DNA from: Candidatus Bathyarchaeota archaeon
Lineage (GTDB): Archaea > Thermoproteota > Bathyarchaeia > TCS64
Reading direction: 5' to 3'
Assembly (NCBI GenBank): GCA_026014875.1
Contig: JAOZHO010000033.1
Span: 77,256 to 109,444 of the forward strand
DNA length: 32,189 nt
A program made the position numbers and the translations under genes. This document shows positions 25,949 to 32,189 of the stretch, piece by piece. Under the pieces are notes generated by a model. It saw only the letters and a list, made by a program, of their open reading frames with translations. It was not told the DNA's origin and ran no database searches. Numbering within the stretch: position 1 is the first letter of the stretch; the number at the start of each line of letters is the position of its first letter.

Positions 25949-26015
25949 TGTTCTAAGGGTTAGAACGTATCCACAATGAGTTTGAACAGTTGTTCTAAAG
26001 CGTGGTAATATTACC
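25949..26015 (+). promoter_or_regulatory. Operator-like inverted repeats and TATA of SIMPL gene
   Basis: GTTCTAA-GGG-TTAGAAC (25950-25966) is a perfect seven-base inverted repeat with a three-base spacer. GAACA-GT-TGTTC (25984-25995) is a second, and the latter runs into another TGTTCTAA (25991-25998). The 12-base palindrome GGTAATATTACC (26004-26015) overlaps the probable TATA box, which would set transcription near 26035 and ATG 26047. This repeated motif looks like a binding site for a dimeric regulator; the regulator is not in the window as far as I can tell. Confidence 0.5.
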
Positions 26016-26046
26016 CACGCGTGGTTCCTTATTGCTCGACGAAGAA

Positions 26047-26850
26047 ATGAGCTTGAAAAGGCAATACGTCTACGTCGTCGCGATCTGCCTCTCGGTCATA
26101 GTAGCCGGGGCGATCATCGCCTACAACCCGTTCCAAGAGAAGGGAGATGACAATGTATTCAAGTTCCCATCAGGGATACCGCCCTCGCTGGGGGTGGGGT
26201 ACGCCACCTCCTTGGGTGAAGGCGACGTCAACTCGATCCAGGTCTCCGGACAGGGGAGCGTCTCCGCTAAGGCGACGCAGGCAACCCTTACGCTGGGGGC
26301 ATGGACTGAGGACCCCGTCGCCGCCGAGGCCGTGGAGGACAACGCCCTCCTGATGACCTCGATCATCGACGCCATCATGGGACTCGGGATCGAGGAGGAC
26401 AAGATCAAGACCGTCACCTACAGTGTCAGCACCAACTACGACTGGGAGGCCAAGGCCGTTACAGGCTATCGGGTCACAAATATGATCCAGATCGTAGTCG
26501 AGGACATCGACATGGTAGGGGAGGTCATTGACGCCGCTGCGGTGGCAGGCGCCAACAGCATCCAGGGTATCAGCTTCGGAATCTCCGATGAGGAAGCCGC
26601 GGCCCTGGCCAACGACGCCTACGTCCTAGCCCTCCAGAACGCCCAGGGGAAGGCTGAGCTAATCGCCAGCACTCTGGACCTGGAGATCACCGGCGTCCTA
26701 TACGTGAGCGAGAGCTACTATGCCCCCTACTCCCCTATCAGGAGTTACGCGGAGGCATCGATGGACAGCGGCTTCGCCGCGCCCACCCCCATCATCGAGG
26801 GAACACTGAGCGTCTCGGTCAGCGTCCAGGTGGCTTTCAGCTTCCAGTAG
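26047..26850 (+). CDS. SIMPL (DUF541) domain protein, membrane-anchored
   Basis: About 267 residues from ATG 26047. An N-terminal hydrophobic segment (about 7-25) looks like a signal anchor, so the rest is probably outside the cell. The SIMPL/DUF541 domain follows (about 60-267): IQVSGQGSVSAKATQATLTLG opens it, SIIDAIMGLGIEEDKIKTVTYSVSTNYDW is its middle, and a beta-rich end follows. Family members include periplasmic oxidative-stress proteins of unknown activity. Earlier GTG codons at 26002 would extend it, but that region overlaps the palindromic promoter. No clear Shine-Dalgarno motif. A T-rich terminator follows. Confidence 0.88.
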   Translation: MSLKRQYVYVVAICLSVIVAGAIIAYNPFQEKGDDNVFKFPSGIPPSLGVGYATSLGEGDVNSIQVSGQGSVSAKATQATLTLGAWTEDPVAAEAVEDNALLMTSIIDAIMGLGIEEDKIKTVTYSVSTNYDWEAKAVTGYRVTNMIQIVVEDIDMVGEVIDAAAVAGANSIQGISFGISDEEAAALANDAYVLALQNAQGKAELIASTLDLEITGVLYVSESYYAPYSPIRSYAEASMDSGFAAPTPIIEGTLSVSVSVQVAFSFQ

Positions 26851-28869: not shown

Positions 28870-29385
28870 ATGGAACGTGGGCCCTTGGACGGTGAAGAGG
28901 AGAGCAGACCCGAAGAAGCCGGTGATTCCACTGAAAAATCTGTTTCTCAGGAAGAAAACGTTCAAAACGATGTCGAGTCTGAGGCAGACGTTGATTCGAG
29001 TGCACCTCAGACGACCAAGCCCAGAGGATTGACGTTCGACCATTACCTGGGTGGAAGCGGAATCGCATGGGGCCTCGGAACCCTGTTGATGCTGGTCGTA
29101 TCTTGGTCGTTGCAGTATGCCGGGGTCGAATTGACTGTGCCCATTATCCTTGCGCTCAACATCCTGCCAACCATGGTGGGAGGCATGGTCGCGACATACC
29201 TCTTCACACGGATAAGCAGGGTCAATTATGTGGTGGATGGGGCTAAAATTGGGGTTGGGGGGTTCTTCCTCACATTCCTCTACACGTCTTTGCTGGGCCA
29301 GGGAGTCGGGGGGGCCTATATACTCACCGGATTTTTACTAGGAGGAGTTTTTGGGGGCCTTATCACTAAAAAAATCTACGGATAG
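28870..29385 (+). CDS. 4-TM protein with acidic disordered N-terminus
   Basis: 171 residues. The first 50 are strongly acidic (many Glu, Asp, Ser) and probably disordered. About four Gly-rich membrane helices follow (near 62-80, 88-112, 121-142 and 145-166), ending with basic KKIYG. I do not recognise a family. It is next to, but separately promoted from, the DUF6754 cluster, and it is also less GC-rich than the earlier genes. It might be a membrane partner of that cluster; this is inference from position only. Confidence 0.65.
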   Translation: MERGPLDGEEESRPEEAGDSTEKSVSQEENVQNDVESEADVDSSAPQTTKPRGLTFDHYLGGSGIAWGLGTLLMLVVSWSLQYAGVELTVPIILALNILPTMVGGMVATYLFTRISRVNYVVDGAKIGVGGFFLTFLYTSLLGQGVGGAYILTGFLLGGVFGGLITKKIYG

Positions 29386-29460: not shown

Positions 29461-29754
29461 TTGGATCAAGACACAGAACCGGTGAACGTCGACGAACTAG
29501 TCGATAAGATCGCCAAAAAGGTTGTCGAGATAGGCATGGAGGCCCCAGCTATCCTCGCACTCGAGACCGCGAGGCCCCTGAGCTTCATAGGAAGCCAGAT
29601 GGGCAGGGCCATGATAGCACCATGGTTCGGGATATTCGGGTGGGGTGCGATGATGAAGGCCGACAATTACATGGAGGTCTTCGAGGATAGGAAGAACGTC
29701 GAGAAGCTCGTTCGAAGGATCGAGGAGCTCGCCGGGATTTCCGATCGGTCGTAA
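29461..29754 (+). CDS. 97-aa protein at head of DUF6754 cluster
   Basis: I do not recognise this protein. It begins acidic (DQDTEPVNVDELVDK), has a central hydrophobic stretch (SFIGSQMGRAMIAPWFGIFGWGAMMKA, about 42-68) that may be membrane-associated, and ends in a helix with alternating charge. TTG 29461 is the only possible start: an in-frame stop lies at 29446. It starts 76 bases after the previous gene and precedes the DUF6754 gene by 22 bases in the same transcript. Confidence 0.65.
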   Translation: MDQDTEPVNVDELVDKIAKKVVEIGMEAPAILALETARPLSFIGSQMGRAMIAPWFGIFGWGAMMKADNYMEVFEDRKNVEKLVRRIEELAGISDRS

Positions 29755-29776
29755 AAAAGAATGGAAGGGAAAATAA

Positions 29777-30556
29777 ATGGGATTAATCTTAGCAGGAAAA
29801 ATGCTAGATCTAGTAACACTTGCAGGAATATGGGCTGTCTCACTGTACCTAATCTACAGCAAGAGAGAGATCTGGATCCGTAGGCTCCCCGCCCTCGACT
29901 TCATCGAGGAAGCCGTAGGCAGGGCAGCCGAGATGGGTCGCCCCGTGGTGTGCCAGGGCTTCGGCTCTGGCACTTCGGGCATGCAGAGCTCGATCGCTCC
30001 ACAAATTATGGCTGGTCTCGCCGTTCTAGGACACGCTGCAAAGATCTGTGCCAGGCATGGCACAATGATCATTGCATCAATGCGTTCCGAGAGCGTCGTG
30101 CCGGTAGCAGATGAGGTCTTGAGAACTGCGTACAGACTCGAAGGAAAACTCGATGAGTACCTTGCCAATCGGGAAGAGCATCTACCATGGCTGCAAACTC
30201 AGGCGTCCATGGTGGCCTTGATCCTCAGGGCCAAGCCGGCCACGGGCATACTCATCGGGGCATTCTGGCATGAATCGATCCAGGTCGCAGAGGCCTTTGG
30301 GATGGTCGGGGCGGTGCAGATAGGCGGAACTGGTAGGCTATACCAGATCCCGTTCTTCGCCGCCGTCTGTGACATGAACCTCATCGGAGAGGAGATCTAC
30401 GCCGTCAGCGCATACATCAACCAGACTCCGCAGATGCTCGCGAGCATGGCTACTCAGGACTACTTCAAAATAGCCGGTATCGCTTTCATCTTACTAGGAA
30501 CCATACTGGCAACTTTGGGGATGGCAACCCCATTGTTGAACCTGTTCTCATGGTGA
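29777..30556 (+). CDS. DUF6754 domain membrane protein
   Basis: A 259-residue protein that matches the DUF6754 pattern I recall: IRRLPALDFIEEAVGRAAEMGRPV early, GTMIIASMRSE in the middle, and QIGGTGRLYQIPFFAAVCDMNLIGEEIYAVSAY near 180-215. One N-terminal helix (about 8-26) and one C-terminal helix (about 233-254) flank a soluble alpha/beta domain; the basic YSKREIWIRR after the first helix puts it in the cytoplasm. No catalytic residues are known. Function is unknown and the family occurs in bacteria and archaea. It is part of a five-gene transcript; a similar fold appears in the product of 31222-32064. Confidence 0.8.
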   Translation: MGLILAGKMLDLVTLAGIWAVSLYLIYSKREIWIRRLPALDFIEEAVGRAAEMGRPVVCQGFGSGTSGMQSSIAPQIMAGLAVLGHAAKICARHGTMIIASMRSESVVPVADEVLRTAYRLEGKLDEYLANREEHLPWLQTQASMVALILRAKPATGILIGAFWHESIQVAEAFGMVGAVQIGGTGRLYQIPFFAAVCDMNLIGEEIYAVSAYINQTPQMLASMATQDYFKIAGIAFILLGTILATLGMATPLLNLFSW

Positions 30557-30562
30557 TTTGAT

Positions 30563-31216
30563 ATGTCTCAAAGAACGATTAGGCGTCAGATCCCGCTGGC
30601 TCTGACATTTATTGTCGGTATCATAATCACGGCCAACTGGTTCATCGATTTGACACCACTGAATGACCTGGGAAACACCATCACGAACTTCAACACGGTG
30701 ATGGTTGCCTTCATGATGGGATTCGCCGGCGTAAACATTCTGATGATCCACACCAGAAGAATCCAGAAGAACATGAGCCAGGGCAATATGTTAGATGTAT
30801 TTTTTAGCGTATTGCTACTCGGCGCTTTGATCATCTGGACCGCCGTTGGAATCTTCATGGGTAGAAGCAGCGACACATACCAGTGGATGTACACCAACTT
30901 CAACCTCCCCCTGAGCTCGACAGCCTATGCAGCTACACTGTTCTATCTGGCCTCGGCCACCTACAGGGTGATCAGGGCCAGGTCGACTGAGACCACGATA
31001 CTTGTGGTGGTCAGCATTGTGGTCATCATGGGCAACATGCCGATGTTCGTAACCTACATACCCGCTCTGATGACCGTCAAGAACTGGCTCGCCGAAGTCG
31101 TGGTGACGGCCGCTTACAGGGCCATCACCATCGGAGTCGGCCTCGGAGGCATATTGATGGGGGTCAGAACGCTGCTGGCAATGGAGACTGGTTTCCTCGG
31201 AGGAACGGAGGACTGA
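30563..31216 (+). CDS. 5-6-TM protein of DUF6754 cluster
   Basis: 217 residues with about five or six membrane helices (near 9-26, 45-66, 86-105, 120-138, 148-170 and 180-205) and short loops carrying Arg and Lys. No family is recognised. GGTGA at 30550-30554 overlaps the stop codon of the DUF6754 gene and lies eight bases before ATG 30563, so translation is coupled. It probably forms the membrane part of a complex with its neighbours. Confidence 0.75.
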   Translation: MSQRTIRRQIPLALTFIVGIIITANWFIDLTPLNDLGNTITNFNTVMVAFMMGFAGVNILMIHTRRIQKNMSQGNMLDVFFSVLLLGALIIWTAVGIFMGRSSDTYQWMYTNFNLPLSSTAYAATLFYLASATYRVIRARSTETTILVVVSIVVIMGNMPMFVTYIPALMTVKNWLAEVVVTAAYRAITIGVGLGGILMGVRTLLAMETGFLGGTED

Positions 31217-31221
31217 TGTGA

Positions 31222-32064
31222 ATGGGTGAAAACGGTGGAATAGGTAAGACACTTATGAACCTGCCTACATGGCTGTACTTCGGCCTCATCATCTTAGCGA
31301 TGGGCTATATCACATTGTATCCTCTCGGCTTTCCGATACCAATTTCTGACCAGACAAGATATGTGTATGCCGCGGTGGACGAGTTGCAGCCCGGAGACAT
31401 CTTCTTTGTTGACATGGGCTACGAATCGGGAACCATTGCTTTCATGGAACCGGGAATGGTGGCTATTTTCAGGCACGCTATGACGAATGGAGTCAAGTTA
31501 GTCATTGTGAGCAGCGCCGTTGAAAGTCCGATGCTGGTAGGGCGACTTATGGATAAAGTCAAGCCTGAATCATTCGGATACGTGTATGGCACGGACTGGG
31601 TTCACCTCGGGTACTTTGCCGGAGGCGAGCCCGCATACGCAAGCCTACTCGGGGATATCAACGGCTTGGTCACTGAAGACTATCAGCAGACACCGACGAG
31701 CCAACTACCATTAATGGCAGAACTAGGAGCGCCCACCGCTGACAAAATCGATCTGGTGGGCATCTGGACTGCCGGAGGCGACGTCGTCGAGGGCTGGATT
31801 AGACAGGCTGCAGTAAAGTACGATCTTACATTCATCACCGAGGTGAATGAGATGATGGTGCCCACGATACTGCCCTACTACCCGATAAACTGCGATGGGA
31901 TCATAAACGGCGGTATAGGAGCCGCTGAGTATGAAAACCTATCTGGTTTTGCCGGGGAGGCGATCAAGCTCTCAGACATGATGACCATGGGAGGACTCGT
32001 GGTACTCGTATTCCTGATTCTTGGAAACATCGGCTTCTTAATGACAAAAGGAGGAAAAAGTTAG
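31222..32064 (+). CDS. TM-soluble-TM protein of DUF6754 cluster
   Basis: 280 residues. A helix near 16-34, a soluble alpha/beta domain (about 45-250), and a C-terminal helix (about 254-274). The soluble part has DIFFVDMGYESGT then KLVIVSSAVESP, and later DYQQTP and ILPYYPINCDGIINGGIGAAEYE. I recall a widespread uncharacterised family with the same DYxxTP, PYY and GGxxGAAEYE landmarks. By eye, this layout parallels the DUF6754 protein of the same operon, suggesting an old duplication. ATG 31222 follows a GGAGG at 31207-31211. Function unknown. Confidence 0.75.
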   Translation: MGENGGIGKTLMNLPTWLYFGLIILAMGYITLYPLGFPIPISDQTRYVYAAVDELQPGDIFFVDMGYESGTIAFMEPGMVAIFRHAMTNGVKLVIVSSAVESPMLVGRLMDKVKPESFGYVYGTDWVHLGYFAGGEPAYASLLGDINGLVTEDYQQTPTSQLPLMAELGAPTADKIDLVGIWTAGGDVVEGWIRQAAVKYDLTFITEVNEMMVPTILPYYPINCDGIINGGIGAAEYENLSGFAGEAIKLSDMMTMGGLVVLVFLILGNIGFLMTKGGKS

Positions 32065-32189
32065 ATGGCAGATGTAATCGGACTCTGGATCTCGGCTATC
32101 CTAACGATAATGATCACCACCCTGGCGTGGAAGGACACCCCCGTCTCCAAGACGGCGGAGCACATCTACCTAGGCGTGATTACAGCCAA
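32065..32189 (+). CDS. Membrane protein of DUF6754 cluster (3' partial)
   Basis: The window ends after 41 codons (ATG 32065 right after the previous stop; GGAGG at 32051-32055). The visible part is one membrane helix (about 5-20) and a short loop, ADVIGLWISAILTIMITTLA and then WKDTPVSKTAEHIYL. It has the look of another integral membrane subunit of the same operon. Nothing more can be said without downstream sequence. Confidence 0.65.
   Translation, partial: MADVIGLWISAILTIMITTLAWKDTPVSKTAEHIYLGVITA

Follow-up and report, generated by a model that had tools for sequence, protein, structure and literature searches.

The GlmL/MutL family (PF13941) comprises accessory proteins of the B12-dependent glutamate and ornithine mutases, and GlmL is believed to serve the B12 mutases as a reactivase or chaperone. 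To our knowledge, no context beyond this accessory role has been described for the family. In ECF transporters, ABC ATPases together with EcfT form one cytoplasmic module that is shared by several interchangeable membrane parts per genome. Barrel-sandwich domains are found in RnfC/NqrA and in biotin/lipoyl proteins, and DUF6754 (PF20539) is a Pfam entry without a function, to which the present analysis adds partners, topology and distribution.

The system described here can be compared with each of these. Its soluble partner is a member of the GlmL/MutL family, and nearly all of its unfused copies of full length retain two motifs, phosphate-1 (DxGSTTTK) and G[ST]GG. Nevertheless, it is about 160 residues longer than the GlmL models, it is paired or fused with a second protein, c1, and tied to a membrane cassette, and it scores under the GlmL and Or-4 equivalog cut-offs, two bacterial members reaching 217-220 bits against the GlmL equivalog (NF040745), whose cut-off is 475. 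In the neighbourhoods examined by eye, no B12-dependent mutase gene turned up repeatedly next to MutL or the cassette. The protein c1 has repeats similar to the RnfC/NqrA and biotin/lipoyl barrel-sandwich domains, but Rnf/Nqr Fe-S or flavin subunits are not among its regular partners. As in ECF transporters, one cytoplasmic module stands beside several membrane parts in a genome (cassettes, MutL and c1 at 7:1:1 and 6:1:1). However, an ASKHA protein and a barrel-sandwich protein make up the shared module, each cassette has four membrane proteins, no ABC ATPase was found as a regular partner in the neighbourhoods examined, and no relation was seen between the sequences. The two resemble each other in working plan only.

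Literature searches on DUF6754, PF13941 and the GlmL accessory name returned no paper on the system and none mentioning DUF6754, and neither a solved structure nor a paper was found for the membrane parts. A described counterpart of the system was not found in the collections and literature searched.

The window operon and its conservation

The window (the whole stretch of 32,189 nucleotides of Candidatus Bathyarchaeota DNA that was analysed) ends in five genes on the same strand, separated by gaps of 22, 6, 5 and 5 bases, as expected from the five tightly spaced genes of the preliminary description. The first one (29461..29754, plus strand, TTG start) encodes c3, a small protein of 97 aa without a Pfam or NCBIfam family, which gives a profile match with E 1e-22 and is a real family member, its relatives being found beside MutL or DUF6754 genes in other genomes. 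It is followed by A1, the DUF6754 protein (29777..30556, plus strand, 259 aa), in which a cytoplasmic Rossmannoid domain is predicted between two TM helices. A1 is the sole protein of the operon with a Pfam family above cut-off (PF20539, E 2e-56; 191.2 bits against a gathering cut-off of 27). A3 (30563..31216, plus strand, 217 aa) is a polytopic membrane protein with five predicted TM helices and without a Pfam or PDB relative. A2 (31222..32064, plus strand, 280 aa) has a TM-soluble-TM layout, with a Rossmannoid domain predicted to be extracellular and no Pfam family above cut-off. Finally, c0 (32070..32189, plus strand; c0 profile, E 3e-58) is a second polytopic membrane protein, whose first 40 codons lie in the window. 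Just upstream of the operon, the same strand encodes a 171-aa membrane protein without a Pfam or NCBIfam family above cut-off (28870-29385), and a SIMPL/DUF541 family protein with an N-terminal membrane anchor is encoded at 26002-26850.

The window stops where its contig stops. Another contig of this genome, C35, begins with exactly the 147 bases with which the window closes. On C35, c0 is completed (206 aa, L112:23-640) and converges on two genes, which encode c1 (384 aa) and a MutL-family protein (613 aa). With MutL and c1 lying on the adjoining contig, the system has more members and a clearer definition than can be read from the window alone. Beyond these two genes, C35 encodes a D-aminoacylase-type amidohydrolase, an M28-type peptidase, an MFS transporter, a second amidohydrolase and a EutA-like protein; the latter, a EutA-like reactivase and another ASKHA protein, lies about 7 kb past MutL (L112:10752-11999). 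The same genome carries a second full cassette on contig C51, in the order A1, A3, A2, c0 and then c3, and a second MutL-c1 pair on contig C50. Its second DUF6754 copy scores 87 bits, and one c1 copy has an intact ORF of 386 aa, without the two TGA stops first indicated. Among the other genes of contig C51 (L004:2871-15476) are those for a UbiA prenyltransferase and a B12-binding corrinoid protein, together with two oppositely oriented pairs of U32-peptidase-like genes.

In the GTDB collection, a scan gave at least 536 DUF6754-encoding stretches, the best 80 of which were taken as loci. The DUF6754 loci examined belong to at least 13 taxonomic groups, including Bathyarchaeota, Thermoproteota, Bacillota, Cloacimonadota, Zixiibacteriota, Fermentibacterota and Planctomycetota, and range over Thermoproteota/Bathyarchaeota plus about a dozen bacterial phyla. 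The order A1-A3-A2 is found in 107 of 115 DUF6754 loci, the A2-type gene being kept after the five-TM gene, and c0 usually comes next. In three of the eight exceptions the locus runs into a contig end; the other five are true orphan DUF6754 genes with no adjoining A3 or A2 (L072, L073, L076, L079 and L085). In several bacterial phyla, c3-MutL-c1-A1-A3-A2-c0 are consecutive on one strand as a single operon. These observations confirm two earlier suspicions, namely that the families also occur in bacteria and that they form a conserved system of unknown function. In the A1 tree, the window protein groups with those of Bathyarchaeota at 99/92 support; a single supported clade holds the archaeal and Bacillota sequences. 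Within the window's phylum the distribution is patchy, DUF6754 being present in 4 of 200 genomes. Judged by gene content and order, the window operon is one membrane cassette (A1-A3-A2-c0 with c3) of a conserved, predicted multi-protein system.

MutL and c1 as probable soluble partners

The two MutL copies of the window genome match PF13941 with 370 and 366 bits (cut-off 27, E 1e-110) over positions 1-450 of 450. In the window's phylum, strong MutL, strong c1 and DUF6754 matches fall in the same 4 of 200 genomes, and the MutL and c1 matches of the other genomes are short and local, with E above 1e-6. The chance of such a coincidence is 1.5e-8, but three of the four genomes share a genus, so that the fair figure is the one at the genus level, 1 in about 4000 per partner. 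In addition, both proteins are present in 28 of 28 further DUF6754 genomes, which were chosen for having DUF6754.

MutL and c1 are also found fused as one gene of 913-1148 aa at five loci (L139:6463-9363, L142:4960-7863, L143:1315-4758, L144:7196-10006 and L145:3-2741) in four to five genomes (G213, G210, G202, G227 and G215), and gene fusion is classic evidence for two proteins acting together. At least three genomes with such a fusion also carry a DUF6754 protein with a 700-aa N-terminal extension (L138, L140 and L141). The repeats of c1 are of the barrel-sandwich (RnfC/lipoyl-like) type, one member scoring over the RnfC_N cut-off (30.3 bits against 25.6), and no known relative was found for most of the protein. 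By genomic association, the MutL-c1 pair is the predicted other half of the system and would contact the cassette physically. The anatomy of the cassette and its link to MutL-c1 are, in our judgement, very probably correct.

Some genomes hold one such pair for a number of cassettes. Genome G062 has seven DUF6754 genes, one MutL and one c1, and a single MutL-c1 pair stands alongside seven cassettes in G220 and six in G216. With fragment matches counted, the DUF6754:MutL ratio is 7:1 in G220, 6:1 in G216, 5:1 in G218 and 9:2 in G225; the membrane part is present in 6-11 copies in some genomes. The reverse, one cassette with several MutL-c1 pairs, is seen in Symbiobacterium and other genomes, so that cassettes and modules do not stand in a fixed ratio. 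The presence of one MutL-c1 pair per six to seven cassettes suggests a shared module with interchangeable membrane parts. When the paralogous cassettes of a single genome are compared, conservation is highest for A1 in all six genomes and lowest for A2 in four of the six, as would be expected if A1 meets a shared partner and A2 varied ligands.

One catalytic ASKHA motif of MutL differs cleanly between archaea and bacteria. In our motif reading, the phosphate-2 motif contains GVGLGGATTNVY or NIY in all archaeal MutLs of the system and GVDIGGATTDVF or DIF in all unfused bacterial ones. The site reads GVGLGGATTN in archaeal MutLs versus GVDIGGATTD in bacterial ones, both aspartates being replaced in archaea. 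The archaeal proteins compared (L112:1909-3747, L113:9290-11125, L129-L131, L187, L188, L196 and L204) include the two of the window genome. Phosphate-1 is kept in every complete archaeal MutL and the adenosine motif in most (the pattern is missing in L188 and L196); all three motifs, phosphate-1, phosphate-2 and adenosine, are found in complete unfused bacterial MutLs. Since both phosphate-2 aspartates are lost, ATP hydrolysis is doubtful in archaea, and the MutL-c1 module of the window organism may bind nucleotide without hydrolysing it, or work by another mechanism.

Topology, neighbourhood and candidate functions

The sidedness of A1 and A2 was derived by counting Lys and Arg next to the pair of TM helices on either side of each soluble domain. 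By this positive-inside rule, the A1 domain is cytoplasmic in 84 of 90 sequences and the A2 domain is outside in 78 of 80. Sidedness and the sharing of the module are supported by computation. Bacterial A1 proteins often have an extra N-terminal outer domain, which is weakly fibronectin-III-like.

Concerning the gene neighbourhood, amidohydrolase or peptidase genes lie near the window cassette and many others. A Pfam scan placed 11 of 142 near genes in the amidohydrolase family, against 3 of 148 far genes, and a fuller count gave 15 of 241 near versus 5 of 182 farther (p 0.07). The window genome (G000) has 44 Amidohydro_3 matches (D-aminoacylase-type amidohydrolases) on many contigs, and 17-60 matches were found in each of the DUF6754-rich genomes including this one, some of them split genes. 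Given this p value and the abundance of such genes genome-wide, the amidohydrolase link should be taken as no more than a hint. Elsewhere among bacteria, the genes around the cassette read, by eye, as glycine-cleavage, lipoate-ligase, fatty-acid-synthesis or translation genes, and such housekeeping-like neighbours in several bacterial groups argue against a narrow catabolic role. At L061, L070, L081, L098, L150 and L149, from several bacterial phyla, glycine-cleavage-like genes precede the operon or its MutL, and at L150 a lipoate-ligase-like gene follows c0. A WOR-3 cassette (L148:5280-7965) is followed, by eye, by roadblock-like and DUF4388-like genes, with ExbB/ExbD-like genes slightly further on.

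The best explanation overall is, tentatively, a modular solute-transport or gating complex, which is favoured because of the anatomy of the system. In such a complex, the A2 domain would lie outside, A3 and c0 would form the membrane core, in line with the core already envisaged in the preliminary description, and the A1 domain would face the cytoplasm. Which small solute a cassette accepts, perhaps an amino-acid, peptide or N-acyl derivative, would be set by the outer A2 domain together with the core. The A1 domain would be the docking site of the shared MutL-c1 module, and the latter would open, drive or regulate the cassette through nucleotide-dependent movement. We infer transport, substrate and energy use, and a transport or gating function is a possibility to be held with caution; known-transporter likeness was found for no component, by sequence or by solved structure.

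The system could instead be a membrane-bound enzyme or cofactor-handling complex, in which MutL would be a reactivase or chaperone, c1 a lipoyl-like carrier and the membrane proteins the catalytic or cofactor-transfer site. The accessory role of the MutL family in B12-dependent mutases, the matches of c1 to RnfC_N and biotin/lipoyl-like domains, the position of the operon among glycine-cleavage- and lipoate-ligase-like genes in several bacteria (by eye) and the B12-binding corrinoid protein on the contig of the second cassette are all consistent with this idea. However, the cassette does not regularly have a mutase or a B12-binding protein as neighbour, the MutLs score far under the GlmL equivalog cut-off (217 versus 475 bits), and several different cassettes per MutL do not fit a single enzyme. 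This explanation is unlikely.

A sensory or signalling complex would account for a domain pair on the outer and inner faces of the membrane: A2 would bind a ligand outside, A1 would relay the signal inside, and MutL-c1 would act as an output or adaptor common to many receptors. The many receptor-like cassettes per soluble module and the extra outer domain of bacterial A1 proteins go in the same direction. Nonetheless, A3 and c0, two further polytopic proteins, are nearly always kept although a sensor needs fewer, and regular partners of the kinase, cyclase or regulator type were not seen. We regard a sensory role as unlikely.

The relation between A1 and A2

AlphaFold2 models built from 86 (A1) and 81 (A2) relatives have a mean pLDDT of 92 and 94, respectively. 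Both consist of a TM helix, a parallel alpha/beta (Rossmannoid) domain and a second TM helix, with a similar order of strands and helices, and A2 has one strand more. Models with pLDDT above 90 hence reproduce the helix, alpha/beta domain, helix layout that had been read from the sequence in both proteins. When searched against the folds in the PDB, neither model found a match with E below 0.001; the top hits, all weak (SIS-domain proteins for A1, various Rossmannoid proteins for A2), had TM-scores of about 0.25-0.4 over the query and were discarded. A PDB sequence search with all components except c3 gave nothing meaningful and no solved relative.

The preliminary description had gone further, proposing that A1 and A2 descend from an old duplication and that, on a membrane core, their soluble domains come together as a heteromer. 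Besides the common layout, three pairs of parallel stretches had been quoted, and these do occupy matching places in the models: (i) the end of the first strand or just beyond it (A1 62-69, A2 66-73), (ii) the second strand (A1 97-106, A2 94-103) and (iii) the last helix-strand unit (A1 191-206, A2 217-231). As sequence similarity, however, they are no better than chance. Profiles of A1 and A2 were compared in four ways (10-member, 86/81-member, trimmed local and trimmed global), and none of them supports homology. With the whole proteins, hhalign gave P 0.12 and 0.03 and aligned the TM helices only. With the trimmed domains, the comparison scored above 60 of 60 column shuffles and placed one quoted parallel in register, but P was 0.017 at best and the score ranked among those of unrelated families; two unrelated Rossmannoid domains could reach an equal score. 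The parallels are thus real as structural positions and fail as a sign of common descent. In addition, A2 has the extra strand, and the two domains are predicted on opposite faces of the membrane, which speaks against their pairing. An old duplication giving rise to a soluble heteromer is accordingly quite improbable.

An anti-phage defence or mobile-element system, suggested by the patchy distribution in the phylum (4 of 200 genomes) and by the frequency of unknown membrane genes in defence systems, is highly improbable in view of the metabolic-gene linkage, the retention of multi-copy cassettes across related genomes and the PADLOC models, which matched no component at E 0.01.

Returning to the modular transport or gating complex, there is a small but real prospect that it would represent a new class of membrane transporter or gated machine, in which an ASKHA-fold (actin/Hsp70/hexokinase superfamily) module takes the place of an ABC or rotary ATPase and one MutL-c1 serves up to seven substrate-specific four-protein cassettes, in archaea and in many little-studied bacteria. 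Through the link to MutL and c1, DUF6754 becomes part of a defined complex that is open to modelling, expression and assay rather than a domain of unknown function, and the MutL family gains a second context beside its accessory role for B12 mutases. A membrane system of seven proteins whose gene order has been preserved in archaea and some dozen bacterial groups must matter in these mostly uncultured organisms.
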